Assembly (NCBI GenBank): GCA_021904315.1
Contig: CM038914.1
Coordinates: 1,054,001 to 1,118,000 of the forward strand
Source of the DNA: Sphagnum magellanicum
Lineage: Eukaryota > Streptophyta > Sphagnopsida > Sphagnales > Sphagnaceae
Direction: 5' to 3'
Length of the DNA: 64,000 nt
How positions within the stretch are numbered: position 1 is the stretch's first letter; the number at the start of each line of letters is the position of its first letter. Below the pieces are notes generated by a model. That model saw only the letters and a program-made list of their open reading frames with translations. It did no database searches and was not told the origin of the DNA. Position numbers and translations under genes: made by a program. Below are positions 31,880 to 57,810 of the stretch, one piece after another.

Positions 31880-32150
31880 CAAACCCTGAAGAGTTTTGAA
31901 GAGTTTTGAAGAGTTTTGAAGAGTTTTGAAATGAATTTGAAATGGGTTCTTGCAATCTCAGCTCAAAAACTTAACTGCAAAATCTGAAGAGTTTTGAAAT
32001 GAGTTTGAAATGGGTGCTGGCAATCTCAGATCAAAACCTAGCTGCGAACTCTGAAGAGTTTTGAAATGAGTTTGAAATGAGTTATAGCAATCTAAGTTCA
32101 AAACCTAAATGCAAACTCTGAATTTTTTTTGAAACGAGTTGGAAATGATT
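31880..32150 (+). repeat. Nested tandem repeat (10-bp and about 70-bp units)
   Basis: At 31890-31930 the 10-bp unit GAAGAGTTTT is repeated four times. It lies inside a longer repeat of about 65-70 bp containing GAAGAGTTTTGAAATGAG, GGCAATCTCAG and CAAAACCTA, present in about three to four diverging copies. Confidence 0.75.
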
Positions 32151-32158
32151 TCTGGAAT

Positions 32159-32182
32159 CTCTCTCTCTCTCTCTCTCTCTCT
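32159..32182. repeat. (CT)n microsatellite
   Basis: An uninterrupted CT run of about 24 bp immediately follows the nested tandem repeat. Confidence 0.9.
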
Positions 32183-33226
32183 ACTGTTGCAAAAATCTTC
32201 CCATACAGAGAAGAATAAAGTTTAGATATTCATAGTTATAAAACCCTAAGTCTCGTCAGTGGCAAAATGAAGAACTAAAAACCAAGTAGTAGGGATATGC
32301 AAACATGAAAGCTTGACTTCGTTGAATCAAAGTTGTCTTTCAATTCACCGAGGATGAATCCATTTCTTTTTGAGTAAATTCTCAGAACCACTCAGAGGTA
32401 GGTGTGAGCATAATAAGTCTTCAGGAAAGTTGTCATTGCCAGACAAGAGGACTAGAAGAAGTTTTGAGGACAGAGATGCTCACACTTGAGGTTCCCCATG
32501 GGCAAGAGCTTGAGCTTCCTTCCTCTGGACCTCCCACAAAGCAAAACTCAGCTCAACATCTCCAAATGCATCCACAACACAAACAAAACCTGCTCATAAC
32601 TACGCCAGATGTCCAAATCCCATGTACAGCAACAAAACCCTGTGATCTTCTTCACGTGTCAGATGGGTCCCATGAGACAAAAAAAGTTTCTGAGTGTGGG
32701 AGAAAATTCGGGGAAGAACACAGTCAGGAGGAAAAAGAAATCCTGTCAGCCAATAAGACAAGGGAGCCAGCAAACAATGTATAGGAACTAATCAACATAA
32801 CTAACAATAGGTACTACTAATAATATTAAAGCAATTTTAGTGATAAAAAGTCTTTGTCACATTTGGGAGATGATGATAAAGTTGTTTGGTTTTTTTTTCA
32901 GGATGGAGTAAGTTTGGCACAAAAACTACTAGCCTAGACTTGAGGATCTTGCAGCAGGAAATCAAATGGAATATCACATGATGCAACCCTGCAAAACTTT
33001 ATTTATAAACACACCACAGATTTGGAAAATGTACAAAGGAATAAGAAGAAGGAAAAGTGAGAATTTACAGGACGTCAAGTTAGCTCAAGCTAGATGTCAA
33101 AATCTCCCAATGTCGAAAACTGACCGCCTGTAGATCCTATATAAGTACTGATGAAGAAGAAGCAGAGTTGTAATCTGTATGTTGTACAAGAAGTTGCCTT
33201 GATTTGTCAGTACCTATACAATTGAT
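32183..33226. other. Intergenic upstream of a PPR relic
   Basis: A + strand open frame at 32404-32784 (126 codons) shows no recognised domain and is not called as a gene. A CTATATAAG word near 33138 lies about 90 bp before PPR-like sequence begins, but no functional promoter is claimed. Confidence 0.4.
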
Positions 33227-34588
33227 GTGGGCAGGCGTGCTCATGCACAGATCATTCAAACTGGTTGTGAGTCTCATGCCTTTGTGAGCAGTTGCCTGGT
33301 TGACATGTATGCCAAATGTGGGAGCATGGAGGATGCCTGCAGAGTGTTCAATAAGAGTCGGTCATGTGATGTGGTCACATTGAATGTTATGATATTTGGA
33401 CTTGTGAAATGTGGGAGGGGCACAAGGCACCTGCCCCAGGACTGTTTTGACAGATGCAACAGGAAGGTGTGCGACCAGCTGCCTTCTTTTGTGGGGGTGC
33501 TGAATGCATTTGCCAGTATAGTTGCGCTTGATGAGGGCAGGCATGTTCATGAGCAGATTATTGAAAGTGGGCGGGACCCAAATGCCTTTGTGGTGAGTAG
33601 CCTGGTTGACATGTATGCCAAATGTAGGAGCATGGAGATGCAGAGAGTGTTTAACAGGATGCCATCTCGAGATGCAGTTGCCTGGACATGGCATCCATGG
33701 GCATGGTAAGGAAGCTCTTCAACATTTTGAACGGATGTGTGAAGAAGGTGTACAGCCAGATGATACCACTTTTATGTGTCTTCTTTGAGCTTTGCAGCCA
33801 TACAGGTTTGGTGGATGAAGGCCTGCGTTGTTATTCTTCAATGAGCACAGTTTACATGATTTCTGGAAAATTGGAACACTATACCTACATGGTTGAGCAT
33901 GGTTGACCTTCTTGGTTGTGCTGGCCATCTACAAGAGGCAGCAAATATGATCAAGGCCATGCCTGGTAAACCAAATGTGGCTGTTTGGAAGGCTTTGCTG
34001 GGTGCTTGCAGAATTTGTGGTAATGTGGAGATGGGAGAATGTGTGGCTAAACAAGTTCTTGAACTGGAGCCTGAGAATGTGGAGGGTTATGTGCTGCTAT
34101 CAAATGTGTATGCTGCTGCTGGCAACTAGGATCTCAGTAAGAATGTTGAATGGCAGAGAAAGGAAAGAGGTGTGAAGAAACAGCAAGGTCACACCTGGAT
34201 TGAAGTGAATAATGAGGTGCATACCTTTGTATTGGATGACAAAAGACCATCATCAGATTGTTGAAATCCATGCAGAACTGAAGAGATTGTCAGGGCTGAC
34301 ACATGATGCAGGGTATGTGGCAGATACTAATTTTGTGCTGCAGGAAGAAGAAAAGGTGTCTCATTTGTGTCACCATAGTGAGAAACTCACTATTGCATTT
34401 GAGTTCATCAACACAGTACCTGGTACTCCACTCTGCATAGTCAAGAATCTAAATCTGAGGTTTGTCATGATTGCCAAACTTCTGCAAAGTTCATTTCAAA
34501 GATAGTTGGGAGAGCAATTATGGTGAGGGATGCAAACCACTTTCATCACATTGAAAATGGTATTTGTTCTTGCATGGGCTACTGGTGA
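33227..34588 (+). pseudogene. DYW-class PPR relic, 5' truncated
   Basis: The sequence begins in mid-repeat (GRRAHAQIIQTGCESHAFVS) with no N-terminal leader. It then runs through PPR motifs (VDMYAKCGSMEDACRVFNK), E-type segments (VDLLGCAGHLQEAANMIKAM, LLGACRICGNVEMGE, LSNVYAAAGN) and a DYW tail ending GICSCMGYW at the TGA at 34586-34588. Breaks include disturbed frames near 33420-33470, a frame change near 33695, a stop right after AAAGN (34127) and further frame changes in the DYW part. It is closely similar in wording to the minus-strand copy at 9.9-12.1 kb and is non-functional. The missing N-terminus suggests a partial duplication. Confidence 0.85.
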
Positions 34589-37399
34589 TGCCAGTAGTCG
34601 TGTCTTGTCAGTTACTGGAGTAGGTTAATTTTGTTTGTAACATATCTAGTAATATTATAATGTCGTCATAGTCAAACTTGGCTAAGGGTATGGCTGCTGC
34701 AAAGATTCTGTCATGCAAGAGACTGAAGTTTTTGGGAACAGAAAGAGCTTAGCCAAGGAGCTTAATGGTGAACATCTGACCAAGAAGGATGGTGGGGGAA
34801 CGACAGCAATTGTCTAGGTGGTGTGATTGTGTCAGTGTGCTTGGAGTTAGGGTGTAGCATTACATGGCAGAATGTCAAGCCCCAACAAGCCTACAGCCTT
34901 GCTAATGATACCATGCTTCTGCAAGCCTATCATTCCAGTTCTCTGGGGGCAAGAAATAGGACCTGGCTTCCTCTGTGAGCCTGCTTTTGCTGCAGCCTCT
35001 GATGGCAGCTCCATCAAAGAGACAATCCAACACTAATTGTTAGAGCCTTCTTGAAGGTAGATATCCTTCAGCAGTGTTTTCCTTTTACATGGTAACACGC
35101 AGCATCAGCAGCAAACATTGTCTTTCAACTTTCAGTTTCGGTTAGGGGAACTGTGTACTGAAATCCATATACCGAGATGGGTTTCCAGATTCGTATCATT
35201 TCACTACTTAGAGTTTATGCAATGGGTGAAATGCAGTAGTTGCAAAGAAGTGCGGTAATGTAATAATACTATTGCATGAATACTGAGCTGCACCTGTTGA
35301 TGTCAATCATTCCCCCGTGCTTGTGTCTCCATCTCTGTTTCCTTTCTACCAAAAGGATTGCATATTTTAGCAAGCATCAAGCTTGACTCCAAAGCTATTA
35401 ATGCATATGGAATCCTTAGAAGATGGCAATGGTTGTAGACAATGAGAAGATGGGTCAGAGAAATGCATTCCTCAGAATTGCTATTAGGCTAAAACAGGAT
35501 ACTTCTTCCTTGCATTCAATGGAAGTGTTGAAGCTATAAAAATCATTAGGTTGAATGTTTGAAGCATTTGAGAGGGGGGATGTCACAAAAATGAACTGAA
35601 CAACTTGATTGAGAAATTAGCTAGGGTATGTGGAGGCCACCGTATATTCATAACTAAACATCTATTATCTGTCCTACAAAAGAGGACAGATATTAGAGTT
35701 ATCCATAAAGTAACCCTGTCTTCACCCTGTCTTTGGGCCTCCTTTCACCCCCTATACCCTCTTTCTGCGGTCTCCGCAAAGTATGGAAATTTTATTAAAT
35801 CGCAGTATGAAAAACTCAGCATTCAATGCACGAGGTTCGAGGGTTGTACATGTAGGAGCAATGAAAATATATGTAACAGCAGTGGAGGCGCTCAGGAAAA
35901 AGGAAAGACAGGATGAAACTTAGTTTACTATCAAAATTGATGGTTTTTCTGAGTTTCACCTTTCCCCCCCTCTTGAATGCTAATGTACTTTTTTGCAGGT
36001 TTTTTTTTAATCTCACCCTGTGTATGGTTTTTGGTGCTGTGTTTTCCTTATTTTATGGATAACTCTATTGGAGTTACTCTTTAAAAGTGCCTACGAGGAA
36101 GCATAAGATCATTTGCACACTCTTTAGGAGTAGGTGTAACTATGACAAGACAGAAAGGCAATCGGATAATGCTCTTATGTGAACATGGCAAGTTTTTAGG
36201 GTTTTATTTTTTATTTTCAGCGGTCATCAACTTTCTGAATGTTAATAGTGAAAATTATTCTATCATTGTTTGTTAGCTGCAACAATTATTGTTTCAAAAA
36301 AGCTTGTGAGCATGGGTAGGAAGTTTGTTTGTTTGTGTGTTATGAAAAACAAATTGACACCAAGTTATGGATGGTTTAGGAAGTTGGAGCATTGAATAGA
36401 GGTTTGCATAGTAGGATGGTGGAAAACATGATAAGAGAAGAATTTGGGAACAATGCAAGCAGGCTTTTTTTCTTTTTTCATCAGTTTCAGGAGATGATAG
36501 GTTGGACTTGTTGTGATTAGTAATTATTAATTTTCGTTGCGCCAATGATTACACTATGGCAAACAATATGTCCCTAGTAATTTAAATTCTATAAGGGGTT
36601 GATGCTGAGGATTGATGATGAAAAGAAGGAAGTCTGAGTTGTAGAAAAAAAGGCATGTAGAGAAACAAGTATGCATTTATAAATGGGAACCTTTGTTGCA
36701 TCTCTCTTTAATCCATGTCGTAAGACATATGTATGAGTGAATGTTATAAGCTTCAATGGGGTGTTCTTGGGTTGGGCTAAATGAGATAAATGAGGACAGG
36801 AGTGGGAAGTTCATAGAAATATATCTACAAACTATACATGCACAAAAAAATTTGTCTTTCCTAAATCGTTTTAAGTAAACCTAGTATACATCATTCATAC
36901 TTTGATCCAAACATGGAAATCCAAATGTTTCTGATGCTAAGGTTTATCAAATAAAGAACTTAATGATCCTCTGCATTGTTGCATTTATTGGAGAAGGGTT
37001 AATAGCTCATATGGATTGAAAGAACTTTGAGAGTTCTGACCTCAAGCTATACCTCAGTAGATTTTAGTTTTTTAATGTATGGTTTTGTACATGGCAACTA
37101 ATTGTTTGCTACCATTATGACAAGTTTGCGAGATTTCACATGTATGTAACAATTTGCAATTCACATATAAAATATTAAACCTTGTTTTGACAAAATAATA
37201 GCACCCGTGGAATTTCTAGTAACATTGGGTTTATAGTTCTCAACTATGTAAGTTGTTGGAATTAATAGTGTTGTAAAATTCCTAGGTTTTATGTTTCTAC
37301 TTTGAGTTTCTTATGCACAATATATTGATTTTTTTCACCTTTCTTTTAGTTACATAATCTCTATTTCCAATGTGTAAAAGCTCGTATTTGCCTTGGGCT
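34589..37399. other. Intergenic, no gene recognised
   Basis: The 3' flank of the PPR relic and AT-rich DNA. A 103-codon + frame at 35605-35916 has no recognisable domain. The word GAGGTTCGAGGG near 35830 recalls a tRNA B box, but no tRNA fold or A box could be found. Confidence 0.45.
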
Positions 37400-37526
37400 T
37401 TACATTTGGTAAAGGCCACAAATGGGGGACATTCCCAAAATTTGGGCCCATATTTGGTTATGCATTGTCTTAGGCCCCTTGTTTTGGGAATGCCTCAACC
37501 CACCTTAGTAGGGCTTTGCATTACAC
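37400..37526. repeat. Short foldback element, family A copy 4
   Basis: The left part, with GGTAAAGGCCACAAATGG and CATTCCCAAAATTTGGGCCC, pairs imperfectly with the inverted right part GTGTAATGCAAAGCCC and CATTCCCAAAACAAGGGG. It matches copy 3 and the half copy near 63.9 kb. The true right limit may lie further out, near 37690, where another inverted GTAAGGCC-like end occurs. Confidence 0.5.
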
Positions 37527-39020
37527 TAAAACCCCCTCCTTGTCCTCTTTTTTTTCCCAAACTTATTTTCTCCTTCATAGGAAACGTAAGTTGATTAATG
37601 AAACCATTTCAAAATTTAACAATGTTAAGGACTTCAACCTTTCCCTTCCCACCCTTGGGCCCTTAAAACCTCATCCAGTGGCCTTACCTTATAATTGAGT
37701 GATTGGTAATTAGCAGAATTTTTCTTAATTGGAAAAATTGACCCAAAATGTGAAATTAGAAATTAAAATTTTGAGAAAGAAGTGTTTTTAAAAGTTTTGG
37801 TTGCTTGAAGTGAAAAAAAATAAAAAATAAAAATGTTAAATTCAAATATTTGATATTGATTATGTAGCCAAAAATATAGAAGGATGATTTTAAAAATAAA
37901 TTAAATTTCTGGTTTCCTAGGGTTGACAGCCACTTTGGCCACAAACAAAAATTCCTTAAAATTATTATTTTTTGAATAATAATAACATCAACATTTTTTG
38001 GAATAATTATTTGGAGGTGGGGTGGGTTTGGCACTAGGCATGTAGTTCTTACTTTTGGAATATGTCTAATTATGCAATTTTTTTAATTAAAAAAAATTGG
38101 TGGATTAAAAGGCATGTAATTGATATAAGTGGTTACTTTTTATTGGTGGTACAGTGCTAGTAAAAAGGAAATAAAATAAAATAAAATCAGTTTTGGGCTA
38201 GGTCGAATGGGGAACCGGATCCGGTTGGGAACTGGACCCGCGTATGAATTTATTTTAAAGAACCTAGAACCAAGGGGCAGAGTGAACCAGCAGCCACTAA
38301 TGCACCAGTTGGCCGTTCTATCCACTGGATGGGGTGCATTTTTTCATTTGGCACCAAGATGGGGTTCATCACAATCCATTTTTTTTTGTTGCTGACCACT
38401 GTATCTTTTTTTTTTTTTTGGTTCTTGGCCATTTTTCCCATGGACCTGACTTGCCACCCTGCTCACTTTCCTACCTCCTAAGTCCTGCACCAACCTTCGT
38501 ACCTTATTTATTATCCCCTATTGACATAGCTACACTAATAACTAATTATGTTATTGACCTAGCGACCTAGCTACTGTACTAACCACCTACCCTGCTAACC
38601 TAGCTACCTTATTAATTACATACCCTACTAACTTGCCTATATACCTAACTACCTGTCTATCTATGTTTTTTTCATAGTCAAATACCTAATTAACTACCTA
38701 CTCATTTTTTTCACCCCCCTTGTCAATCCTACCTATCAATTTATTAAAGTTCGCCTTAGTTTATGGATGATGAACATAAGTTCCCATATGTAAATATTTT
38801 TTAAAAATTATAGTGGAAACAATGCCATAATTGCAGCCATTTTGGTTTAGTTTATGCATATTTTATTAAATTTTGTTCACCTAATTTATTATTGAATGGA
38901 CATTACAATACATCTTTTCATGTAATTATTATAAGTATGTACTATTGGATTATGGTTTAAGTTTAGAGTTAGGACACATAAATTAATTAATAAAATTTTC
39001 ACAAATGTATAGTAATTAAT
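37527..39020. other. Intergenic, AT-rich with a CTAC-rich block
   Basis: A run of CTACCT/CTAACC words at about 38450-38700 resembles one arm of the 8-kb tetranucleotide palindrome. T-runs are common. No gene is supported. Confidence 0.5.
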
Positions 39021-39021
39021 C

Positions 39022-39150
39022 TAAAGTAGGCTAAATTTGGGGGGAAATTTTAGGGTTTACACATATGTGAAGTAATACAATTTCATTTTATATCTTCTTC
39101 AAAGATAATGGAAAAAATTAGGTTGGAGAGATCACACAAAGGTAAAAAAC
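39022..39150 (+). repeat. Direct repeat, left copy, preceding the MULE
   Basis: A segment of about 120 bp containing TTGGGGGGAAATTTT and TTTCATTTTATATCTTCTTC recurs in the same orientation at 44180-44295. Here it includes an ATG followed by a lysine/arginine-rich start (MEKIRLERSHK) and a GT donor, so it could be the first exon of the MULE transposase gene. Confidence 0.6.
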
Positions 39151-40218
39151 ATATCTTCTCTTTTGGTTTTGTACTTATTTGATTGTTATTAAAGTATTTT
39201 CTTCCAGTCAATAAATATTTATAGTTTAAATCTTTAAATTTTGGTTTCTAAATTTTTTCTTATGTTCTTTTAAGTTTGTTTATTTTGCATTATATAATTT
39301 GTATAATTTGTAAAGTTGTTTAGGTTTAGGGCATTTAGGGCATACATTTGGACTTTTTTTTGTTATGGTTTGTATAGTTAGGGTTGTAGTAAGGCTTATG
39401 GCAAAATATCATTTGGATTTTTAGGGTTATGTTTTATGATTTAGTGTATAAGAATTTGGTTCATATATTTCAGAGCCTAAAGTTTATACTCTAAACGTTG
39501 TTCATTGTATTGGTTTTTTGTCTTATCACTTGTTTAGATCTATACCATAATTATAAATCTGTTTTGTTTCCATATGTTCCATGGTTGTTAGAGTTTAATA
39601 TTTTTTAACCCACTTTTGTATGAGTTGTGATCTTTTAGGGTTGCATTTTCAATTGGGACTACAAACTTTAGTGGAACGTTAACATCTTTTATTCCTAAAG
39701 GTATGCATTTGTCTCTTGTTATTTTTTTTTTTCTGTTTATATTTTCATAGTTCAACCTTTTTTCATTTCCAAGTTATTGGATATAGAAAAGGCATCAAAT
39801 TTCATTAAATACATAACCATAAATAAAGGTTTTATACCTTTACACAAATATTTCATATTCAATATCTCTTTGTAGTTTGATTTTTTCATACCCATATGTG
39901 AATAATGCATTGACTCCCCACAACTAGTGTGGGTTTTATGGCCCAAGGCAAGTATTGCATTTTTGACCTCTCAAACAGTGTGCATTAATTATCATTATGT
40001 GGGTATTATTGCATGGGGTTTTTAGACATTGTGGGCTTAAAGTACAATTCGAGTATTGCATATGTGAATAGTTTCAATGATGGAAGGGTTTAATAAATTA
40101 ATGTGGGCATTGCCAAAATTTGTTTTAATATATGGGTTCATAATGTCATGTATGTATTGCATTTTGGGTTTTTGTTCAATGATGAATGTTTACATAATTA
40201 TAAATTATCTTGGTGCAG

Positions 40219-42881
40219 GAATTTGTCCTACTTCCTTCAATCATGGGAAGGGTTCCAAATTCCATTCCATTCATGTCCAAAACCCCACCAAGTCCCTTTT
40301 TTCAAACAAGGATTTGGTGTGGAGGTCTGGGTTATGCCATGGAGGGCAAAATAAAGTGACCATTCAATTTGCTTATGTTCCATATGCTCGCATCTCGGAA
40401 TTCTTGGAAGGTGAACGAGGGGATATGGGCACCCCTATGGAATGGAATGTTTACAAAAACTTTCCAAGCCAAACAGATGTCAAGCAACCAACTATCAAAA
40501 ACCACCTCGGGCATACGTGGTAAACATTTATGGCGTTAACCTTTTTTATTTCTTTAATTCATATACCAAGATGTAATCATTTGCATTTTGAAATTTTTTT
40601 GGTTTAGGTATCAGTGTGGATATGGACCAGAGGACTATCGGGAAAATTCAACCCACACTCGATTTATTAAGCGAAGATGCCTAGCGTCATTCTCAATCAA
40701 ATGTCTATACACACGACCTGATGTGGCTGAGATCACAATTTATCATAAGGCCCATACACGAATTGATGGGTCATTCGCACATGGTGAGCATGACCTGGAA
40801 TCCATTTATCGTATGTCTCGTTATGCTCCACACATGTCACAAGCATTGAAGGACCACATATGGGCCCAACTAAATTTAAGTTACACAACCAAACAAATAT
40901 ATGACAAGCATAAAACAATTTGGTGGGAACGTGTGAATGCAGGTCAAAACATGACACGAGATGATTTCATTTGGCTTCAAGACATTGCATATTTGGATCA
41001 AAAACATAAAAAAGGGAGTTGGCATTTACACACCAACCCTGCAATTTCAATTCGGTCTTGGGCTCTCCAACACCCGAAAGATGTATTCTTTCTCCAAGAT
41101 GTTGGTGAAATCAACAGGACTCAAGTCCCATTCACCATAGGTATTCAAACATCAACTCAATGTGAGTCCATGCTATCATATGGTCATAATGGTGCCATTT
41201 TTATGGATGTCACATTTGGCACAAATGACATGAAATTCCATCTATTCACCTTGATGGGGTTTGATGATCATCACATGGGTGTCCCTTTAGCTTAGATCAT
41301 TACAAGTAGGCAAACAATTTAGGATTTGATCGAATGATTGAAACCATTAAAAGATAAGATGTTATCACACATGCCACATTGGAAACCATCATGTTTTCTC
41401 GTTGATGATGCACCTCAAGAATTGAAGGCATTACAATTAGTTCTATACCTAGGACCCACTTTGTATTTATTTCCTTATATGTTTTTTGATATCTTTCATA
41501 AAATTGTTGATTACTTCAAATGCATTTTATGTTATATTAACCCCATCCACTCATGGAGATTTTATTGCATGTGTCCTTATTAGGGTTGTATGGGGTATGG
41601 ACAAGGTTCCCATCTACCTTTATTGTTGGCATGTTCTGAAAGCATGGCGCTTATGTGGTACTGAAAAAATCAAAGATGTGGAAGTGCGAGGTGGAATCCT
41701 CCAAGACCTTCGTGATGTGATGTACATGTCCATCAATCATGGAGAAACAATTGATGACTTCAAAGAGCGTGGGAGGGTTGTTGTGAGAGAAAGCTTTCAT
41801 AAAAATAGGCCTGGTGATGCGTGGACAAATTATTTCTAGACTTATTACCATCAATTTGGTAAATGATAATATTTATCATGGTTTAGTATTCAAAATTATT
41901 TTGTAATAATGTTATTCATCCTTGTGCATTATGTTCATGTTTGTAGAATTATGGATGGTGGGTGTTCGAAAAGTGCCCCATTCCAACCAAGACACCCAAG
42001 TGAGCATTGAATCATATCATGGTGCATTGAAACGTTGGTTTGCTCTTAACACAAAAGGCCTTAGAGGGCGTAGGATTGACTGGTTGGTGTGGCGATTAAC
42101 AACAACCATTGCACGACATTACATGCACACATTGGAAATGAAAAAAAAGGGTTTCATAAAAAACAAGGTTATGGAGGCCATTATTACACAAAATGTGGAA
42201 AAGGCAACCCTTATTCTACGCACCCATGTGTACCAACCAACCCTTGAAAGTGATGGAGCTTGGGGCGTAAAGAGCCAACGCCTTCCCAATGTTATTTACG
42301 CGGTGAAATTCCCATTCACCGAAATATTTTGTTGCACATGTGAATGGGCATTACGAGGGAACATGTGTAAACACCAAATTACAGTCATTCTCACATGCAC
42401 ATACATTTCTCAAGAGGATATCATTCATTACTATGGAACATGGTATGGATCACATCGTGGAGGGTTGGGTCACATGTTTGCAGACCCACGACATATTCCA
42501 AATGGTATGGAGTCCAATGATGACGAAGAAGATGAACATCTTGAAGGTGATGATGGGATCATGGAATTTGATGGGCTCATGAACATGGAGCAAAATGATC
42601 TCCCTATGGGTACCATTGTAACGTCTAATGACACAATAAATTCATTAACCCCAATGGAAAGGGTGCTTGCACAATTGGTCACTACAATGCAAGAGATCAC
42701 AAATGAATGTAAAGAAGGCGATGTGACATTTTGTGAACATGCCACCTCACACATGAGAATATTGGCATGTAATATTCATAACATACACCTCACAAAGGCA
42801 AATGTAATTTCACACCCAAGATTAATGTTACACTTCGTAGAAGATGGGTTGGGAAATAGTGTCAAACGGCTCAAAGATTGA
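40219..42881 (+). pseudogene. MULE-type transposase with SWIM zinc finger, intron-containing, nearly complete
   Basis: A + strand Mutator-like transposase in several exons. The clearest join is 40519 to 40608 across an 88-bp GT-AG intron, which keeps phase (HLGHT-WYQCGYGPEDY). Other exons are about 40608-41430, 41584-41859 and 41947-42881. The MULE domain covers FMDVTFGTNDMKFHLFTLMG (candidate catalytic Asp), CFLVDDAPQELKAL (second Asp region) and GMDKVPIYLYCWHVLKAW. The SWIM finger CTCEWALRGNMCKH (CxC...CxH) is at about 42333-42374. An acidic stretch NDDEEDEHLEGDD follows. Stops interrupt at 41293 (after GVPLA), in the next 50 bp, and after DAWTNYF. Such elements move by cut-and-paste of DNA. 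Long terminal inverted repeats were not found. Decay is slight, so it inserted fairly recently. Confidence 0.8.
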
Positions 42882-43175
42882 CATGAAACAATGTTCAATC
42901 ACACAAATGTACGTACTAAACAATGTCATGAATAAATGTCTCAATTACTAATCAAGATTATTGCCATTGGCATTAAGAATTTTGTTTTATAATCAATTTT
43001 GTATGGAGGAAACCATAGCCCAAATTTTTTGAACATCATCTATTCAACACACACATGAAGTCTAATATGGCACAAAGGTTATTATTGTTTCCAAGTAATA
43101 AACACAAAAAGTGTGAAATGCAAATACACAATGAAAGTGATAATATTAATGTTGAATGCAAGTATTATAACTAGG

Positions 43176-43440
43176 CCCCAAAATCCTAGTTTGTAGAAAT
43201 AAGTACAAGTGCAAATATTACAATTAAACCCCAAAATTCCATTTGGTAAAGGTACATACGAGTTTAGGTATTATAATGAAACCCCAAAATTCTAGTTGGT
43301 AAAGGCAAGTGTGGGTGTAGGTATTGCAATGAAGCCCCAAAATTCCAATTGGTAAAGGTAAGTACAAATGTAAGTATTACAATGAAACCCCAAAATTCCA
43401 GTTGGTAGAAGTAAGTATAAGTTTAGGTATTGCAAGTTTA
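43176..43440 (+). repeat. 53-bp tandem array, five copies
   Basis: The marker CCCCAAAATTCC (variant CCCCAAAATCC) starts at 43176, 43229, 43282, 43335 and 43388, exactly 53 bp apart. Between markers, units share GTTGGTAAAGGTAAGTAC and a TAGGTATTACAATGAAA-type block. The array lies just 3' of the MULE transposase and may be part of its subterminal region. Confidence 0.85.
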
Positions 43441-44943
43441 AATAAAGAATCAACCTTAAATGCAATAGCCACTTTTTTAAAAAACTCATTTAGATGGTTT
43501 GGATACCCTTAAGTGAAGACCTAGCCCTAAACACAATACCCACATGCAAAATCACTTTGAAATAACCCAACCCTATATGTAATACCTGCATTCAAGGTCA
43601 TTTCGAAATTACGTATGTGGGGTTCAAGCCTCTTTAAATGAAGATCCTACCCAAAATGCAATACTCACATTTTGGGTCACAAAATAATTAGTTCATTTCA
43701 AAATAGTATGCTAACAAAAGTGTGTATAGAGGTTGGGGTTGTTGATTAGGAGTTCCATGATTCTTACTTTGTTTCATTGAATTTGGGAAGAGGTTATATT
43801 GTTTGTGGAACAAATAATACAACGATAATTATGATTAAGTTTATCTTGGTGTAGGAATTTTTCAAGGAAATTTTGAATTAGCAATCTATAATGTGAAATA
43901 ATTATCTTAAATAATAATTTCAATAACTTATTAAAACAAAAGTATAATTAAGTTAATCAATCAAATGTTAAATTAATCAATTTGATTTGTAGATCCAACT
44001 TTTTATTATCCAAGTAAATAAAGTTAAACCAAATGATTAGTTAATTATTTTAAATAAATAATTGATTATTTAATTATTGATAATTAATCATTTAAATTAT
44101 CCGAAATATTGGTCTATTAGTTATTTAATTATACGACAAAATTTGGTGATAATTCATTAATTATCAAAAATAATTTACATTAAATTGGGGGGAAATTTTT
44201 AGGGTTCAAACATATGTGAAACAATATAATTTCATTTTATATCTTCTTCAAAGAGATTGGAAAAAATTGGTTGGAGAGGTCATGCAAAGGTAAAAAGAAA
44301 ACCTTATGTGAAAGCCCAACCCTAAATGTAATACAAAGTTTGTTGAGATCAAAAAATTAAAAGTTCAAGCTTAAAATTTCTTCAAATATGTTCATATTTA
44401 TGTTTTTTTCCCTTTTAAAGTTGTAAACTCATTTCAAAAAATATATATATAAAGTTTTTAATTCAATAAGATTTTAAACAATGTTTTAAAAAAAATCAAA
44501 GCACATAATTTTCTACTTTTTTTTCGTTTCACATAATAATAAAAATCATCTCTCCCACATATTAATCCTATGTTTGATTAAAATTTTATTTTATATTTTT
44601 CTGATATATAGTAAATAAGTTCTTAGTTAAAATAATCATATAGTGGGTAAAATATATATTATATTTTATACATATATAACACAAATCCTTAGGTAAAATT
44701 TATTTTTTATGATGTATAATATTGGTTTAAATATTGGTCTAAATATGTTGTTACTTATAACACATAATATATAAATAATGATATTATGGAATTATATCGT
44801 CGATCCATTTCAATACATATAATATTTTCATATTTATTATATATATATAAACCTATGGTTATGTATATTGTGATTTTTAATGAACTTTGTTTTTAATGCG
44901 AGTTTAAAATTTCCAAAAAATTAATAGTTAGGTATGAAAATGT
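43441..44943. other. AT-rich intergenic DNA
   Basis: 43490-43700 contains reverse-oriented words similar to 39920-40070 (GCAATACTCACA versus TGTGGGTATT), possibly subterminal repeats of the MULE. 44300-44940 is extremely AT-rich, with TATATATA runs, and contains no gene. Confidence 0.45.
44180..44295 (+). repeat. Direct repeat, right copy, following the MULE
   Basis: It matches 39022-39150 in the same orientation, with few differences over about 115 bp and lower similarity outside. It includes the same AAAAAATTGGTTGGAGAGGT-like text, so it looks like a second, truncated copy of the element's 5' part. Confidence 0.6.
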
Positions 44944-46190
44944 TCATAAGTTCTTCGACATCATGCTAGAGTTTGTGTAGATTTGAAAAGTTTTGTGAGG
45001 GCCAAGGTGTTTTCCATTATCCAACTGCACATATTCGTAGAAGGTTGTAATTGTTTCTCTAAAAGTTGATGTACCTCTAGGTGTATTAGACACAACTTGA
45101 GTCAAATTACATGGTACCTCCTCCCCCCCAACACTAAGAGTGAAATGTAGAATGTTGAAGATAGGCAAGTGTACTTGGTCGGGGTGCCATGTGGTTGCAT
45201 CGCCAAAACTGCAAGCTGATTGAATCAGTGTTGGTGTTGTGTACATTTGAAAAAGTACACAAGTTACCAACAACCGTGTAAGGGAGTTTAGGTCCATGCC
45301 TCTCCCTAGTAAAACATTACACTCCAATCTAGTCACCTTAGTGTGACTAATAGTGCCAATTTGGAACCCCATAGCCCTTTCTATTTCTTCTGGGCTTAAT
45401 TCATCCCAAGTGGTTGAAGCATGACGATACACCAGGCCTGGTCCATCTCCCTAAAAGGCGTGTGCTCCTAGGAAGGAGACAAAGGTGGGCCAAGAACCTC
45501 TTGGTTTTCCTATTGTGTTCGTAGGAAATCAAGGAGGTTTCTCTTGCCTTATAACTGGTTGGCAAGAACTTTGATCATTTAATATGTGAGAAACTTGCAA
45601 GTTGGGGTCTCTGATAGTGTATTTTAGAGCTAGCTGGAAAACTGAGAGTGGTGTTAGGTTGGTCCACTAGTTGCACAACTGGTGCGCATAGGAACCGCAT
45701 TGTGCCACATCAAGTAGGAGCGGTTCTCCAAGGTAATGCTTGACCAATGTGTAGTGCTCCTGGACTTTTTCACTCTGATCAAACTGAAAAGGGGTGTTCT
45801 CAATTACATAACCAAGTGTAGGAGAAATGGATTGAGCCTAGGTGATCAATCGTATCATGTCCGTGAAAATACCAGATCTTGTGTCACTCAAGCCTTTTCC
45901 AAATCCAGCCATTGAAAATCCTTGTCACTCCCAACCTAAAATGATGAAGTCGACGGGGCCAAGTAATTCCATATGTTTTTTCTGAATTAGTTGTATGTTA
46001 GAGGGCAAAAATGTGAAACTAGCCTTCCATGCGGTGGTTGCAAACTGTTGTGGAAATCTTGTTGTGAACTCCCTCATTTTCGATGCCGCCATTTGCCTTG
46101 CAATAGGATCAATGTTTACGTAGAAATACCTTCGAACCACCATCCCTGACTATAGTAGGACTTCGAGACCTGTACCAATACCACCAAAGA
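44944..46190 (-). pseudogene. Cytosine-C5 DNA methyltransferase domain within the retroelement (fossil)
   Basis: The family transfers a methyl group from S-adenosylmethionine to cytosine C5 in DNA. Visible landmarks, in family order, are the SAM-binding motif I (LELFGGIGTGLEVLL), an acidic motif II region (YFYVNIDPIARQMA), the motif IV neighbourhood (GPVDFII), a motif VI-like VIENTPF, an AHxLxN-type segment, then SPEEIERAMGF and LLGRGMDLNSLTRLL, resembling motifs IX-X. These occur in the right order over about 400 codons. The text directly continues the retroelement protease and linker rather than standing as a separate gene. It is broken. It does not resemble host MET1, CMT or DRM, because no BAH, chromo or UBA parts were seen. 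Confidence 0.7.
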
Positions 46191-46599
46191 GCTCTAGTAA
46201 TGTAATCTCTTCTTAAGGTGGTGTCTAGGTGATTAGTTGATGAAGTAATGGCTTAATCGGTTCACCATGGCTCTCCATGCTCTCAAAACTAGACAAAGTT
46301 TTGACCAAGGGCTTGTGGGCTACTTTGAACCTTTGTAAAACCTCTGGTCCATGTTGAATGTTAGTAGGAACCACCCTCAAGCTTTCAATAGCTTGAGCAT
46401 AAGCTATCTCCTCTTCATCTCCTTCTATCCACTCGTGGCTAGCTTGTTAGATGTAGGAAATGGTGTGTGCGTCCTTGAACATACAATGGTGAGCCATAGG
46501 ACTATGGTTCCCATGTAAATCAAGAGGTATGTATCCTAGGTGGTGGCCATCAGTCTCCCAATCCACTCAGTAGTACACATGTTCGAACCAGTTGTCAAT

Positions 46600-46900
46600 T
46601 ATGAAACCTGGTGGAAACAAGGCCTCTTGCCCAATGAGCACATCATAACTAGTGGCATTGGTGACTAAACATCTGACCTATAAGCAAAGCTCCTAATTTG
46701 TACCTTCATTGAAATTAAGTGCAATCAAATTCGAACTTTCCCCAAGTACCTCCTCTACGCTCCCACTAGCGGTGCGAATTTGCCACATAGAACTCTGTAG
46801 TTTGGAGTCAAGCATGCCCATCTTCTTGGCGAATTGAATTCCAAGAATCACTGGTTGGGCACCTATATCATGAAGTACCACTCTGGGTGTCTATCCTCCC
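46600..46900 (-). pseudogene. Retroelement aspartic protease region (fossil)
   Basis: MVLHDIGAQPVILGIQFAKK resembles a retropepsin active-site region (hDxGA pattern). Downstream VTNATSYDVLIGQEALFPPG resembles the flap/C-terminal part. It lies between gag and the methyltransferase domain on the same strand. It is broken. Confidence 0.55.
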
Positions 46901-47529
46901 ACTTGGATTGCTGACCCAGTATTGTCAACAATGGCAACTCCGATGGCAATGGAAGTTCTCTCACTAAACACCACCTTCAGAAATGAATGAGAAACTTTGT
47001 GGAGAAAATGACTATCCACAACCTTTATTGAGTAACAAATCCATAAGTGAGGTGTTCTTAACTCCCCTGATATGAGAATGTAGAATCAGAAGTAGGAAAG
47101 CCCACTAGTTTAACCATGCTAGAATTAGTGACCAGATTACGAATGCCATCTACAACACGTGAGCCAATTGAATGTTTTTCCAAGGTGTTAGATGGGACCT
47201 TTATAACATGTGGATCAGGGATTGGTAGAGGACATGATGTAGTGTTCAGGGTATCCTCTAGTACTGCAATTATGTCCATGGTGCTTAACTTCAAATCTTG
47301 AAAACTAAACAATGGTGTATTCACAAGCTTTTGCACCACTTCATGCATTTGAAGTTGGCATTCCATAAGCTGATCAATGGAAAATTGTGTGTTTTCCTTA
47401 TATACATCTACTCCTAGGACACAGGAATTTGATGCCCTAACAGCTTGTGGCGTAGTAGTCTCCTCCCCCCTCGCTAACAAGGTGCGTTCTTCTTCCGTGT
47501 TGAGAGGATGAAAAGATTGTGGCATGACT

Positions 47530-49356
47530 ACTCAAGCTCTTCTAGCCTTGGTAATAGGACTTGAACCAGATGCGAGTCCATTAGTCTGAATTACCTACCT
47601 AGTGGCAGAAACTATGGGTGCCACATTAGCCTCTTATGCCGCAACATAGGGAGGGCAAAAATAAATAGCAAATTATGGTGTGAGACTAGAATTATGTGTA
47701 GTGGAAATAACATACTCCCCAACCATGGCATCGTGTGGGAGGCCATAGAACGACCTAAGAGGTCCCTCTCGTGATCCTGAACCTTGTACAAGTTGGGCAT
47801 GACTAACTGGTTGGGAGGACTTGCTTTTTAGATCAGCAAGTTGGGCCTTCAATGATTCAAATTCATTTTGTAAAGTCTAAACTTGAATTACATGGGCTTG
47901 AAGCACCTCTTTCTTGTCAGCATTGTGCTTCTTCTTCTTAGCATTCTTGTTGGAATTACCCTTGGTGGGCAAAACATGAGTGGAAAGTTGAGGTGCCTTG
48001 GCTTTTGGTTAAGGGACAACGAAAGATGCTAGTAGATTTTGCCATGGTAATCGAAATTGCTTCTGTTTTGGGAACTTGGCAAAATAAACAACTTTTTGAT
48101 GTCCTTTTTTTCCCACAATAATCACAAAAGAGATCCTTGGAAGGAATGTTGCATTCACTAGCTTTATGGGCATAATTGTCACAATAGTTGCAAGAAAATA
48201 AGATGGGTGTAGCCGAGTGCACTGCTTTAGCCCTTGAAGAAGAATGTGATGATCTAGTTGGCGCAACTGGCGTAGGTTGAGGCCTTGAACATGATGGAGG
48301 CCTCATAGTATTAGCTTCATAGTGTGCATGAACCAGTTCCAATTTCTTAGAATTGTTGTACACATCAAGCAAAATGTATGAGTTTCCAAATTTTGCAAAA
48401 ACCCGTTGTAAAACCTTCGCATGGAGTGTTGGAATACCTTCCAACGAACGAAAATACCGGTGGGCAACTTCCAAGTCTATGATGCTCTGGGTATCCTTTT
48501 TGAGTTTAAAAAGCCTCATGTAGAGCATCTTAAAGGTTTCAGCTTTTAGTCGAGAGAAGGTAGCAAGCTATAAAAAAATTTCAGAACTTTTGACTGGAAA
48601 TTCCAGTTCAAGAACTCAAAAGAATTCCCCCATTAGATCAGCAAAAGTTGGCGCATTGGTGGTGGGAGAAATGTTTGTAATAGCAGCAATGAATTGTTGA
48701 GGAGAAAGGTTTATTGAGGTAGGTACCGGGTCTAGAATATTGGGCATAGTCCCGTGATGTGCAATTGCAGCTTGCAATGCAACTTGAAAGGCAGTGGCAA
48801 TGGCTGTGGCGTAAGTTGGATTAGGAATTTGGGTGACTCCCAAAATCCTTGTAGAATGTTGTTCGTAGACATCTAATGCCTCATAGTGCACATAATGGGC
48901 CAATTGTTTGAATGCAAATGCCTTAGTGTAATTAACACCATACTTGAGCTCCAATTCACAAACCACAGTTGAGAAAGTTGCCTTGAACCCCCTCAAAGAA
49001 ATGGTACCTGGCCTTCCACAAAAATTTTCAATTCTCCCAAAAGAATTGTTGACCTCCATGGTGTATATGGGTGTAGAGGTTACGGCTTGGAGCGGAATAT
49101 ACGGTGATGGTGTGAAAGCAGGTGTACCCCACTGATTAACCCCTCCAAATGGACTTTGATGTATCGTTGATGTAATGTAACCTAAACCTGAATTCCTCGT
49201 ATGAGTTGTACTAGATGACAGTGGTGCTATAGATGCTTGATAGTACCGTCGTGAAGATTGTGAGTTTAAAGAAATCGGCTCAAAGGATTGTGTGTTACTT
49301 CGTAATTGATACCTAGGCTCTAATTAAGCGGTAGTGCTCTCATCATCCAAAGACAT
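47530..49356 (-). pseudogene. Retroelement gag region with CCHC zinc knuckle (fossil)
   Basis: The likely start is the ATG at 49356 (MSLDDESTT). A central portion has gag-like helices (MEVNNSFGRIENFCGRPG, then KYGVNYTKAFAFKQLAHYV). A CNYCDNYAHKASEC knuckle (CX2CX4HX4C) is followed by a second CDYCGKK-type cysteine pair. This is the typical nucleic-acid-binding part of gag. It is broken in several places. Confidence 0.6.
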
Positions 49357-49369
49357 GGTGTTGTCCCAT

Positions 49370-50750
49370 GCCCCAAAATTTTGTGATAATATACAACACT
49401 AGTTACAAAATTCTAACACAACGTACGGTCTGAAGAATATAGTGCGTCCTTGGGAATGACCCGTGATAGATAGATGTCGCACGGAGGTCAAACGAACATC
49501 TAACGAAGGTCGGACGAAGGTCAAATGGAAGTCAAATAGACGTCGAATGAAAAGGCAGGATGGCAGAACGGTAAAACACATGACGACAAAATGCAGGACG
49601 ACAATGGCGTATGACAACAAGAAGACTTGCACAAGACGCATGGCAACACGACACAGGACGAAAGTTCGATGAACGTTGAACGGACTAAGGTCAGCCGCCG
49701 CTGTTGTAGTGGCAGCGTTACCGGTCGTAATGCTACAACGATGGTGATGCGACATTACAACTTGCAACACTAGAGCAATGGCTATAACACTATAGCTCGT
49801 AACACTAAAGTGATGGTTATGGCACTATAGCTTGCAACGCTAGAGCGATGGTTGTGGTGTTGTTGTTGCTACTGTGGCGCTGCAGTGCTATTGTTACAAC
49901 GATGGCAATGTAACACTATTGTTATGGCATTGCTGTAGCGATGGCAGTGTGATGTTATTGTTACGGCGTTGTTGCTGCGACGTTGCAACTCGTGACATTG
50001 CGATGCTACAACAATGTGGCGTTGAAGCTCGCGACATTGCATGTTACAACAATGTGGTGCTGTAGCTCGCGTTGCGGGAGCACCGCAAGCTAGCATCGCG
50101 GAAGTAATGTTGCTTTGCAATAGGCGGTGTTATGTTGCTCTACAGCAATGGTGGACGCCATTACCTAAATTTTTTTTAAAAAAATTATATTCGATAGTCG
50201 CCACAAGAGGGCGCGTTTTTACGCGTGAAAGAAAGAGAAAGAAAAAAAAAAGAGGGGGAGCTTTTAAACCTATCAAGGATCTCGCCTCTATTAGTTAATA
50301 GGAATGTAACAACACACGCTCCCTCCGGTAGTAGCAACACCAGCAATAGCAACATTAGGAACAACACGAATTCAAAGGCAAAAGAAATTTGTCCCTTTCA
50401 ACATTAAACAACAAATATTAGAGTTTTTCTAGAATTGAATGAAAGAAAGAATTGAATTGCAAAGAAAGAAGAAGATGTAATGTATGTAAATAGTGGCCGT
50501 GCAATGGCTGTCGTGAGCATCTAGAATTCCTATCTGATTATGAAAGAAACTTTCCTAACAAAGGAATTTTAGAAAAACTAAAAAAAGAAAGGAAAGGCTT
50601 GACCTTTTATATAGTTGTTAATAAACTAAAACCCTAAGTACCTAATAACGTACAATCACCTAAAACCGTACATTAACCCTAAAAGCGCACATGGGCATGC
50701 CCATAATTGGCCATCATGTATGAGGCCATGTACGAACATGACATACATTG
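49370..50750 (-). promoter_or_regulatory. LTR or leader-like region of the retroelement
   Basis: On the minus strand a CTATATAAAAGG TATA-like box lies at 50603-50614, pointing towards gag. A purine/pyrimidine-rich tract and a GC-rich repetitive part (about 49440-50160) follow. A candidate LTR start TGTCATGTTCG lies near 50750. A matching copy on the far side of the element was not found, so the LTR identity is inferred from position and composition. Confidence 0.4.
49767..49860 (+). repeat. 35-bp minisatellite within the retroelement leader
   Basis: Units beginning ACACTAGAGCAATGG, ACACTAAAGTGATGG and ACGCTAGAGCGATGG start at 49767, 49802 and 49837. Looser repeats of GTTGTTACAACGATGGCA-like text continue to about 50130. 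This is the most GC-rich part of the surrounding 10 kb. Confidence 0.6.
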
Positions 50751-51289
50751 GTGCCTTCACCTTTTCGATTGAAATCTCTCAGTGTCTGTATTTAACCCAT
50801 AAAATGTTAAATTTGTATTGTGATACCTTGATTTACAATTCCCATAGTATGTTTATAATGCAACAAAAAATTTCGGGTTTTTACCATTAGACCCAACTAT
50901 ATGTGTAGGTGTTCATTATGTCAAGGTTGTTTTTTACCCACTTGATTTTCTAGCTGAAGCACACAATAGCCATTAACTAATCCCATAATTTGTAAGGAAA
51001 CCATGGTTTTAATTCAAAACAAAAGTGTAGAAAATTGGTCTTCAATTTTCATAGTTTCAACATCCATTTAATTTCCAAAATAACCCATAAGTACATTAAA
51101 AATTAAAGAAACACCAGACTTAAGTGTTATAAAGGCAAAAGCATGAAACCAAAACTCCAAAGAGGCTCCATGGCCACCTTTTCATTGGTACCACATTTGA
51201 TAATGCTAATGAACATTGATTTTATTACAATACTAAACATGTTACAAACAAACTGAATTTGATATAATGATTAACAAGACATACTATTG

Positions 51290-51650
51290 CCATCATCGAT
51301 AATCCATGCAAGAACAAACATCATCTTCAAAGTGATGAAAGTGATTGGCGTCTTTCACCATGATTGTTTTCCCAACTATTTTTGAAATGAATTATGTGGA
51401 AGTGTGGCAATCTTCACAAACTTGTAGACTTGTTATTATTTGAAAAGGAGTACTAGGAGCTATGTTGATGAGCCCAAATCAATAGCCAATTTCTTGCTAT
51501 GGTGATACAAATGGAACACCTTTTCTTCTTCTTCCACATCCTACAAAATAAAATTGGTACAAGGCACAAACCTTACATCCCACATGAGCCTTGCCAATCT
51601 TTGTAGTTTTGCATGAATTTCAATCATTTGAAGGTGGTCTACTATTGAGG
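51290..51650 (-). pseudogene. DYW-domain fragment of a PPR gene
   Basis: The minus strand reads HLQMIEIHAKLQRLARLMWD, then EEEEKVFHLYHHSKKLAI, then [20 protein letters not shown] and CSCMDY. This is the C-terminal E+/DYW part only. It is interrupted by stops and frame changes, and the HxE glutamate has become lysine (HHSKK). It lies head-on against a plus-strand PPR relic starting only a few bases to the right. Confidence 0.8.
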
Positions 51651-51654
51651 GGAA

Positions 51655-53240
51655 TCACTTTGTTGAAATATATGCAAAATGTGGGAGCATTGAGGATGTT
51701 TGCGAAATGTTCAACAAGATACCATCTTGAGATGTGGTTACTTGGACCACCATGATATTGGGACATATGCAATGTAGCCAAGGGCAAAAGGCACTCAAAT
51801 TATTTCAAGAAATGCAAGAAGAAGGTGTGTAGTCAAACTTTGTTACTTTTGTGGGGGTGTTGAATGCATGTGCCATTGTAATTGCCCTTGAAGAGGGTAG
51901 GATTGTTCATGATAAGATCGTTGAAAAAGGTTGTGAATTTGATGTCTTTGTGGGGAGTAGCTTGGTTGACATGTATGCAAAGCTTGGGAACACAAAGGAC
52001 ACTTAGAGAATGTTCAATAAGATGCATTTTGAAATGTGGTCACTTGGATTGATATGACATTGGGACATGTGAAATGTGGGCAAGGGAAAAAGGCCTTGGA
52101 ACTATTTGAACATGTGCAATAGGAACATGTGCAACCAAACTTTATTACTTTTGTGAAGGTGTTGAATGTGTGTGCCAACATGGTTACACTTGTAAAGGCA
52201 TGTGGGCTCATGAACTGATCATTCAAAGTGGTTTGGAATCAAATGTCTTTGTGGGGAGTAATTTGGTTGACATGTATGCAAAGTGTGGGAACATGGAAGA
52301 TGTTTGAAATGTGTTCAACAAGATGCCATCTTGAGATGTGGTAACTTGGACTACCATATTTGGAGGATGCACGATGCATGGGCATGGTAAGGAAACTTTT
52401 AAACATTTTGAATGGATGTATGAAGAAGGTGTAAAGCTAGATGATATCACTTTTGTTTGTATTTTCTCTTAGCTTGTAGCCATGCATGTATTGTTATGTT
52501 TCAATGGTCACAAATTATATGATTTCTACTAAATAAAAATGCTACACTTGTATCGTTGACCTATTTGGCCATGCTAGGCATCTATAGGAGGTAAAGAATA
52601 TGGTCATGGCAATGCCCTACCTACCACATGTGGGTGCTTGGATGACCTTGTGCAATGCTTGCAAAATTCATGGTTATGTGGAAATGGCAAAATGAGTTGC
52701 AAAACAAATTATTGAATTGGAGCTTGACAATGCTACCAATTATGTGTTGTTGTTAAACATCTATGTTGTTGTTAGCAATAAACATTTTTGTGACAATGTT
52801 GAATGACAAAAAAAGGAAAACGGTGTGAAGAAATAGTTGGGTTACACTTGGATTGAAGTAAATAATGAGGTACATATATTTGTAATAAATGATCAAGACC
52901 ACCCCAAGATGATTGAAATTCATGCATAATTACAAAGATTGTTAAGACTCGTGCATGATGCAAGTATGTGCCTTATATGAAAAAAAATTTGCATGATGTG
53001 GAAGAACAAGAAAAAGTGTTCCATTTTTGTCACCATAGTGAAAATTTGGCTATTACAATTATCAACATAACTCATGTTATTCCTCTTTGAATAACAAAAA
53101 AGTCTACAAGTTTGTGAAGATTTCCACATTTCCACAAAGTTCATTTCAAAAATAGTTGGGAGAATGATCATGGTGAAGGATGCTAATCATTTTCATCACT
53201 TTGAAAATGTTGTTTGTTCTTGGATGGACTATTGTGATGT
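51655..53240 (+). pseudogene. DYW-class PPR relic, heavily decayed
   Basis: PPR text starts in mid-repeat (FVEIYAKCGSIEDVCEMFNK) and continues through VTFVGVLNACAIVIALEEGR, VFVGSSLVDMYAKLGN and a later GSNLVDMYAKCGNMEDV-type motif. It ends in a DYW-like tail ([32 protein letters not shown]). Many stops are TAG or TGA where the sister copies have CAG or CGA, as expected from C-to-T decay. It is the most AT-shifted of the three PPR loci and therefore probably the oldest relic. Confidence 0.8.
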
Positions 53241-53439
53241 TAATAGTTTGTCTTCTCAATCATTGTCTCCTTTTGTTTGTAGCACATGATATTAGGTTTC
53301 AAGTTTAGGGTTTAAGGTTTACAACATATGAACAAGTGCACTAGGAGTCTTTAAAAAAAAATGACATTTGGAACAAACCAATAAAAGAAGGTTTGGCCCT
53401 AAAGGTTAAACCCAAATAAAATATAATAATCCCAAATGA

Positions 53440-53770
53440 CCTACCTAACCTAAGCCTACCTATCTACCTAGGCATAACTACTACCTACCTATTGACCTAA
53501 AAGTGCCACAAATTAACATCTTATTGCCTTAAGTTGAATGACATAAATTAAATTAATAAAAATATTAAACATTAAAATAAATAAAAAATTCCCATGTGTC
53601 TATTGATGATTTATCGGCACATCATTGTCACATCAACACATTATTGCTTGTGTAGTTGCAACATGTTGACACAATAGTTGCAATATAATGGCACAATAGT
53701 AACAACATAATTACATAGTAGTTGCAACATAGTGGCACAATAATTGCAATGATCTAGTTGCAACATATCA
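53440..53770 (+). repeat. CTAC-rich block and a GTTGCAACAT tandem repeat
   Basis: 53440-53500 is rich in CTACCTA words. From about 53645 to 53770, AGTTGCAACATAGTGGCACA and variants recur about five times with a spacing near 22-25 bp. It is non-coding. Confidence 0.6.
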
Positions 53771-55702
53771 CAAGTTATATATGTATACAATTTCATATAC
53801 GGTCAATTGTGCCACCACAACTTTTGCAACTCATGCAAGTGGTTATTGTGATTCAAAATTGCAACTAAAACCTAATTGCAAGCCTAATTACAAAACACTT
53901 ATTTTCTCATAGTGTTGGATATTGGGTTGCCTCGTTGCTTTGCTAGTAAATGACTTTAAAGTTCCATAATTGTTGTAGACAACATCCTATACCTTACAGT
54001 TTGCTCCTCTATCTTGGGTATCATTTGCATTATATTGTACTTTTTTTGGAATGTGAAAATGTGTTGCATCATTTACTAACTATGGTTCCACATTTATTAC
54101 ATCATTTGTTGCATTTTGCTGAATTAAAACCTAGTTTAATTGTCTCTACAAACTTTAGGTCATGATGCGATCCATGCTCATCCTTGTTCCATGGTTCTTC
54201 TCGATGAATAAATTGTTATAGATCAAATCTTCACAACTATTTTGCTCAGATTTGAATCCTAGCAACCCTTTGACCAATTGTGAATATATATAAACAAAAA
54301 AAAAAATCTTTATAACAACCTCTCTATTCTTCAACAAAACAACAAGAAATAAAAACAAACAATCTGTAAAATTTTGATTTCCTACCCCAAATTCATCCTA
54401 GGGATGGTTACCAAATGGTAAATGCTAATTTATTCTGCTCTTCTAATTGAAATTTTTGTACTATCATATTGTAATTCAAAACATTAGAATTTGCAAACAA
54501 ACATAAAAACTACAGAAAAAACTGAGAATCAAATCTGATAAAATATTCAAAACTCCAAATCCGCTCTAGAAACCATTCCTACAGTTGATTGAAAACATAA
54601 TTCAATCAGTATGGATCCATGACAATGCTAGCACAACACCATGCATATTGTAGACTTTGCCTAGTACTGAAGGGAGATGCCAAACACTTCAAATTCTTAA
54701 GAGAAGTGAACCGGGAGATGTGCAATGTGGGTGGCATTTGCAGCCAGCCAGTGAAAATCAATAATAATAATGAACTGTTTTGTTGGCTCTCCCCTTCAGG
54801 GTAGAGAGTAGAGACATTGGGATGCACCCAGAAAGAAAGGGGCCAAAGTTTGGTATCCCTACATTCTAGCTGGGTCATGTGGAGTCCACTGTAGAAATAT
54901 TTCGAGCATAACTGACATATCCACTAAGGTTTCACAATGCTAACCACCATGTGTTTTCAATTTATTGTGTTCTATACCTATCAACCTTATGAATGCCATT
55001 TGAAGGGCAGAGCCATTATGCAACAAGTGCCTTGTTTATTTATTGGTTGTTGCTTTAAGAATTGTTGTTGAATTCAAGCATTTGAAGCTCTGGTGCCTTC
55101 CCTCTCTCTTTTGGAAGTATTTTCCTTTCCCAAGTGCTTTCTTGCTTGCACTGTAGTGTTTTCCCCACGGTTTCAGGGATTCTGTAAATGTTTTGCCCCT
55201 CTGTCCGGTTTTCAGTGATTCTCTAGTTGGGATAGTGCGTGCATCAAAGGCATTTTCAGGGATCTCCGGTTTCCATTAATGCCGGAATAGCTTCATTTCA
55301 TTTTGGAGCCAGGTTCCGCTGGAGAGCGCTTCTTTGATTAGAATGATTATTAAATATGATTTTCCAACTTCTCCAACAGTCTGTAAATCAGCTTATATTG
55401 TCCTCTTCTTGGAGCATTTAGAGTTTTCTGGTCCAAAATCACCAAAGATCGTTCGTATAAAAAACAGCACTAGATGAAGCTCTCAACATACCGACACCAA
55501 ATCGTATCAACTGCTGGTGAACAATCTTCATGATGAAATAAAAATCACATGTTAGTACTTTAGAACCACAAACAAACCATGTATATTCACCATGCGACCC
55601 TTAAATTGCACCAAATAGAATGTCATTTTAAAGTCCAAATGCTACGCCAATGAAACTCCTGTCCACCTTAAGCAGTCACTCCTGCACACATAATCTGAAG
55701 GC
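53771..55702. other. Intergenic, 3' flank of alpha-tubulin
   Basis: AT-rich on the left, becoming mixed on the right. A 90-codon minus-strand frame at 54606-54878 has no recognised domain. The last 100-200 bases before 55703 are probably the tubulin 3' untranslated region. Confidence 0.45.

Positions 55703-57810
<2,108 letters not shown>

Follow-up and report, generated by a model that had tools for sequence, protein, structure and literature searches.

The minus strand of positions 44944 to 50750 in a 64,000-nucleotide (nt) stretch of DNA from contig CM038914.1 (the window, whose first letter is position 1) probably carries a dead, 3'-truncated retroelement of gag-protease-methyltransferase layout, most likely an element with long terminal repeats (LTRs) and of Gypsy-like character, in which a DNMT3-type cytosine-C5 methyltransferase lay between the protease and a reverse transcriptase (RT) that has been lost. 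In order of transcription, as read from the frames, the strand holds a gag-like frame, a linker in another frame, a protease-like stretch, a second linker, the C5 methyltransferase and a short continuation to 44944 (Table 1). An earlier note on this DNA had described gag, protease and methyltransferase as consecutive on one strand, which the minus-strand frames and a match to PF00145 bear out, although the protease is weak, and the five methyltransferase motifs that it quoted, including IDPIARQ, GPVDFII, VIENTPF and ERAMGF, all lie in minus frame 2 between 46197 and 45364 and in the order that it gave. Its identification of the enzyme called for a profile match, and one was found: the 330-codon methyltransferase stretch, read with X at stops, matches PF00145 significantly and above the curated cut-off (E=5.4e-5, 23.2 bits against 22). 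PF00145 was found again in a blind scan of 44941-54900 in the three minus frames at E up to 0.1, here in a 3320-codon frame and under the cut-off of 22 (E=0.0013, 18.7 bits), and apart from a DYW domain, which belongs to a PPR stretch nearby, that scan returned nothing else.

Table 1. Features of the putative retroelement relic, with positions in the window
Feature	Positions	Strand	Remarks
Upstream stretch, possible leader or LTR	49399..50750	-	TATA-like ctatataaaagg at 50614-50603; 35-38-nt tandem repeats at 49764-50071
Gag-like reading frame	48010..49398	-	Frame 2; candidate start ATG at 49356; 3 in-frame stops
CX2CX4HX4C zinc knuckle	48151..48192	-	Sole such motif in the six frames of the window
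Linker between gag and protease	47030..48030	-	Read in frame 0; 7 stops in 333 codons, surrogate mean 17.2, 2 of 500 as low
Retropepsin-like protease relic	46507..46959	-	HDIGA where D[ST]GA is expected; YDVLIG close to the end; 4 stops in 151 codons
C5-cytosine methyltransferase relic, DNMT3-like	45223..46212	-	PF00145, DNMT3A best PDB match; canonical motif order; 6 in-frame stops
Coding-like continuation beyond the methyltransferase to the apparent truncation	44944..45222	-	93 codons with a single stop, at the end

Reading frames across the stretch

The protease and the methyltransferase have minus frame 2 in common from 46998 to 44944, and this frame, which like its bounds was picked after the translations had been inspected, holds 14 stops in 685 codons against a surrogate mean of 35.3, a count that none of 500 surrogates equalled or undercut. 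The other two frames over the same interval hold 38 and 43 stops, and the G content of frame 2 by codon position is 0.279, 0.171 and 0.201, position 1 being the richest. When its parts are taken singly, surrogates with as few stops numbered 46 of 500 for the protease, 101 for the linker, 1 for the methyltransferase (6 stops in 330 codons) and 29 for the tail. Protease, linker, methyltransferase and tail, taken together, resemble what was once a single reading frame.

Alternatively, a rearrangement might have placed the relic of a gag-protease unit beside a methyltransferase relic of separate origin. Such a junction would be consistent with the linker of 98 codons between protease and methyltransferase, which with 3 stops is not significantly stop-poor by itself, and there is only one copy to go by. 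However, the parts lie on the same strand and in the same frame, no break in base composition is seen across the stretch at 500-nt steps, and the protease-methyltransferase frame is stop-poor as a whole, which argues against a chance junction and renders this origin quite unlikely. The linker alone is uninformative, and roughly a third of random junctions would preserve the frame by chance.

The protease call is a weak one, made on signatures in a decayed stretch that, with X at stops, reached E=0.0021 and 19.1 bits with PF13975, under the cut-off of 28.2, and E=0.028 with PF13650, and that matched no NCBIfam family and no protease in the PDB. The gag-like frame is much poorer in stops than expected (3 in 463 codons against a surrogate mean of 20.7, none of 500 as low), and its putative assignment to gag rests on its position and on the knuckle, a pattern that occurred 0.15 times on average, and at most twice, in 40 first-order Markov surrogates of the window. 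A second knuckle-like stretch, frameshifted, follows directly after the first, as seen by eye in the translation. Of the interval marked by the earlier note, the part from 49400 to 50750 is non-coding upstream sequence, only putatively a leader or LTR, and the TATA-like ctatataaaagg within it is compatible with a 5' LTR.

Short 35-38-nt tandem repeats occur in 49400-50150, just upstream of the gag-like frame, and the observed/expected ratio of CpG there is 1.25, against 0.34 for the whole window. CpG depletion as a scar of methylation was considered for the element and set aside as not specific, its ratio of 0.34 being that of the whole window.

Affinity of the methyltransferase

The methyltransferase is better read as DNMT3-like, a reading that comparison of the sequences favours and does not prove, and the enzyme would on that reading derive from a host DNMT3. 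In a PDB search DNMT3A ranked best (E=2e-4 for the whole sequence), with DNMT3C next and then HhaI (E=0.11) and DNMT3B (E=0.2). The 39 distinct sequences returned at E up to 10 included no DRM chain and no DNMT1, CMT or MET1 chain; because a PDB query with DNMT3A itself finds DRM chains and none of DNMT1, CMT or MET1, the lack of DRM is the only one of these absences that is informative. The order of the motifs is canonical, unlike that of the permuted DRM enzymes.

Capture of the enzyme from a bacterium or a virus, and not from a host DNMT3, would be compatible with the rest of the proposed history, and several comparisons point towards such a source. In a tblastn search of 50,697 phage records with a limit of E=1e-3, 3 records matched, all at annotated C5 methyltransferases (24% identity over 46-48% of the query, at its N-terminal side). 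The longer form of a degenerate motif IV pattern matched nothing and the shorter form 40 loci; 26 of these are matched by the fossil in tblastn with E no higher than 1, and the methyltransferases that can be read there look bacterial-type. A phage comparison set was formed from 26 of the 40 loci, namely those with open reading frames (ORFs) of more than 220 codons reading AGWPCQG, any residue, then S or R, and the remaining 14, left out of the set, include L026 and L032, both of which match by tblastn.

Within this comparison, and in the profile and structure databases, the following results count against the preferred reading. DNMT3A ranked only sixth of 27 by phmmer, behind five phage ORFs, the best of them the bacterial-type L012 (31.6 bits against 23.4 for DNMT3A), and for the N-terminal half 10 of the 26 phage ORFs had z scores above that of DNMT3A (19.0 for L012, 14.2 for DNMT3A), a half in which the motif shared by selection inflates the scores of the set. 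The match to DNMT3A has a best single-domain independent E-value of 0.22, with its C-terminal piece at 1e3, and the C-terminal half alone gave three chance-level matches in the PDB (E at least 0.67), none of them a C5 methyltransferase. The NCBIfam model TIGR00675 scored 25.2 bits against a threshold of 100.65.

However, the phage set was chosen by its GWPCQG motif, and in the C-terminal half DNMT3A came first of the 27 (z=3.9, followed by L023 at z=3.4). Motif X of the fossil reads LLGR as in DNMT3A, a reading found in none of the 26 bacterial-type phage ORFs, and 17 of those 26 have GN[ASG][IVM] outside motif IV. In addition, the published Klebsormidium elements are DNMT3-related (PMC5890265). 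Capture from a bacterium or virus is rather unlikely, and a DNMT3-like enzyme is retained in the preferred reading.

The end of the copy and its missing parts

To judge from its letters, this copy is dead and would yield no working enzyme, because a stop lies at 45925-45927, where alignment to the PC of DNMT3A places the catalytic cysteine of motif IV. AlphaFold, run without an alignment, gave a mean pLDDT of 38.5. Beyond the enzyme the frame stays open to codon 93, and for this reason the methyltransferase appears to have sat inside a longer polyprotein, and the copy to be truncated at its 3' side; the surrogate mean for this continuation is 4.6 stops, and with 29 of 500 surrogates as low it carries little weight on its own. 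In 500-nt bins, G+C is 0.41-0.45 from 46800 to 45301, 0.35 in 45300-44801 and 0.19-0.21 below. The earlier note had proposed that the gag/protease region runs into a C5 methyltransferase that stands in the place of RT. The first part holds, protease and methyltransferase sharing one frame, whereas the second does not follow, as the copy ends soon after the enzyme and RT may have come next. RT, RNase H and integrase would then once have followed in an element of Gypsy-like type.

Several negative results weigh against the interpretation of the stretch as a truncated retroelement of this kind. The gag pieces match no retroelement family in Pfam, so that the gag stays unclassified, and the blind scan of 44941-54900 on the minus strand (E up to 0.1) did not recover the protease. 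By the same type of scan, no family at all came up at E up to 0.1 in the three minus frames of 25001-44940, and so neither RT, RNase H nor integrase. No LTR pair was found, the repeat pairs that span the stretch being copies of PPR genes only, and no primer-binding site was found with the one pattern searched for, that of initiator Met, which gave 19 matches where 41 were expected. The failure of the blind scan to recover the protease makes both the negative for RT, RNase H and integrase and the protease call itself weaker, and it lowered our confidence in the overall explanation slightly, to a level at which we still hold it to be probable.

The failure to find an RT at minus-strand positions 25001-44940 and the close approach of the end of the coding-like frame to the drop in G+C would also be expected if the element had been non-autonomous, with gag, protease and methyltransferase only, never with an RT, and moved by a helper. 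However, no repeat matching a 5' LTR follows 44944, so that the end looks truncated, and in the Klebsormidium element the enzyme lies inside a Gypsy Pol ORF (PMC5890265). A non-autonomous origin is improbable next to loss of the 3' part from a longer element.

Relatives were also sought by peptide patterns. In viral_contigs these matched 2 stretches for the methyltransferase, 6 for the protease, 4 for a gag piece and 138 for a two-row alignment, none of which was confirmed, a weak result as the patterns were drawn from decayed letters or from two rows. The two-row alignment pattern matched 81 stretches in genome_contigs, again with none confirmed, and with only two rows this too is a weak negative.

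Closest published elements, possible function and surroundings

The capture of methyltransferases by retrotransposons of algae and dinoflagellates, which the earlier note had named as a precedent, is confirmed in PMC5890265. KnitGypsy-Dnmt3 of Klebsormidium nitens is described as DNMT3-related, non-rearranged and intron-less, its place being the Pol ORF of an LTR element of Gypsy type, with repeats arranged as in DIRS elements (PMC5890265). DNMT3 members are further reported as embedded in LTR Copia and DIRS elements of streptophytes and dinoflagellates (PMC12344493), so that the streptophyte element is called Gypsy in the one source and falls under Copia/DIRS wording in the other. The fossil resembles KnitGypsy-Dnmt3 in its layout, with a non-rearranged DNMT3-like enzyme in the coding region of a retroelement, but it keeps relics of gag, protease and methyltransferase only, its RT, integrase and repeats were not found, and its host appears to be a land plant. 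SymbioDIRS-Dnmt3 and SymbioLINE-Dnmt are likewise retrotransposon-borne C5 methyltransferases, whereas they belong to other retrotransposon classes and other hosts and were acquired independently according to PMC5890265. No methyltransferase-bearing retrotransposon of a vascular plant stood among the matches listed, which comprised titles and abstract openings, most subscription journals lying outside the search. The probable land-plant host and the direct joining of protease to methyltransferase are possibly new features.

The DNMT3 genes of plants, which have a DNMT3-type domain like that of the fossil and are found in non-flowering streptophytes (PMC6453930), suggest a further origin, namely that a host DNMT3 gene left a relic or retrocopy beside an unrelated gag-protease relic. 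However, these host genes carry DUF3444 C-terminal to the DNMT3 domain (PMC6453930), whereas the domain of the fossil comes after a protease-like stretch, with which it shares its frame, and DUF3444 was not found in the minus frames of 35001-54900, where a decayed copy could escape detection. Such an origin is very improbable.

Beyond this single copy, it can be proposed, as a tentative idea that we rate somewhat below even, that land plants harbour or harboured a lineage of LTR retrotransposons with a DNMT3-type enzyme directly behind the protease, inherited from streptophyte algae or captured anew, which marks its own cDNA or its insertion sites, and that the stretch described here is a fossil of that lineage. 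Live relatives would produce the enzyme within a gag-pol polyprotein, from which the protease would free it; packed into the particle, it could then methylate either the cDNA, while reverse transcription proceeds or once it is complete, or the insertion site. This travel in the particle and self-methylation by live copies are suggested by analogy: for retrotransposon DNMTs, de novo CG methylation has been reported and self-methylation of cDNA proposed, the benefit being left open (PMC5890265). If further copies confirm the reading, the capture of methyltransferases by retrotransposons would extend beyond algae and dinoflagellates to land plants, in which DNA methylation is a main defence against transposons. 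One could then test whether such elements turn de novo methylation to their own use, and whether those of Klebsormidium and of land plants belong to one old lineage.

The neighbours of the stretch, comprising PPR-DYW, tubulin and MULE sequences, make a land-plant host probable, and would be compatible with a fern; an expansion of PPR-DYW proteins marks land plants. The intervals 9827-11959, 33219-34660 and 51222-53264 are related to one another at the DNA level, in part carrying internal repeats some 300 nt long and in part inverted, and the first of them is PPR by Pfam. The DYW domain was matched at 51490-51299 on the minus strand (PF14432, E=1.1e-18). Pieces of a tubulin gene, of alpha type by eye, lie at 55703-57178 on the minus strand in two separate ORFs (PF03953, PF00091). 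On the plus strand, a MULE transposase match at about 41197-41445 (PF10551, E=3.5e-6) is flanked, within 39032-44296, by a pair of direct repeats (about 117 nt each, 88% alike), a direct orientation being unusual for the ends of a MULE, where inverted repeats would be expected. These repeats (39032-39148 and 44181-44296) were considered as LTRs and rejected, as they bracket the plus-strand transposase and lie wholly downstream of the retroelement stretch. An acetate kinase-like ORF is present at 24791-25774 on the plus strand (PF00871, E=3e-104, profile positions 126-392 of 392), in a window that is otherwise plant-nuclear-like.

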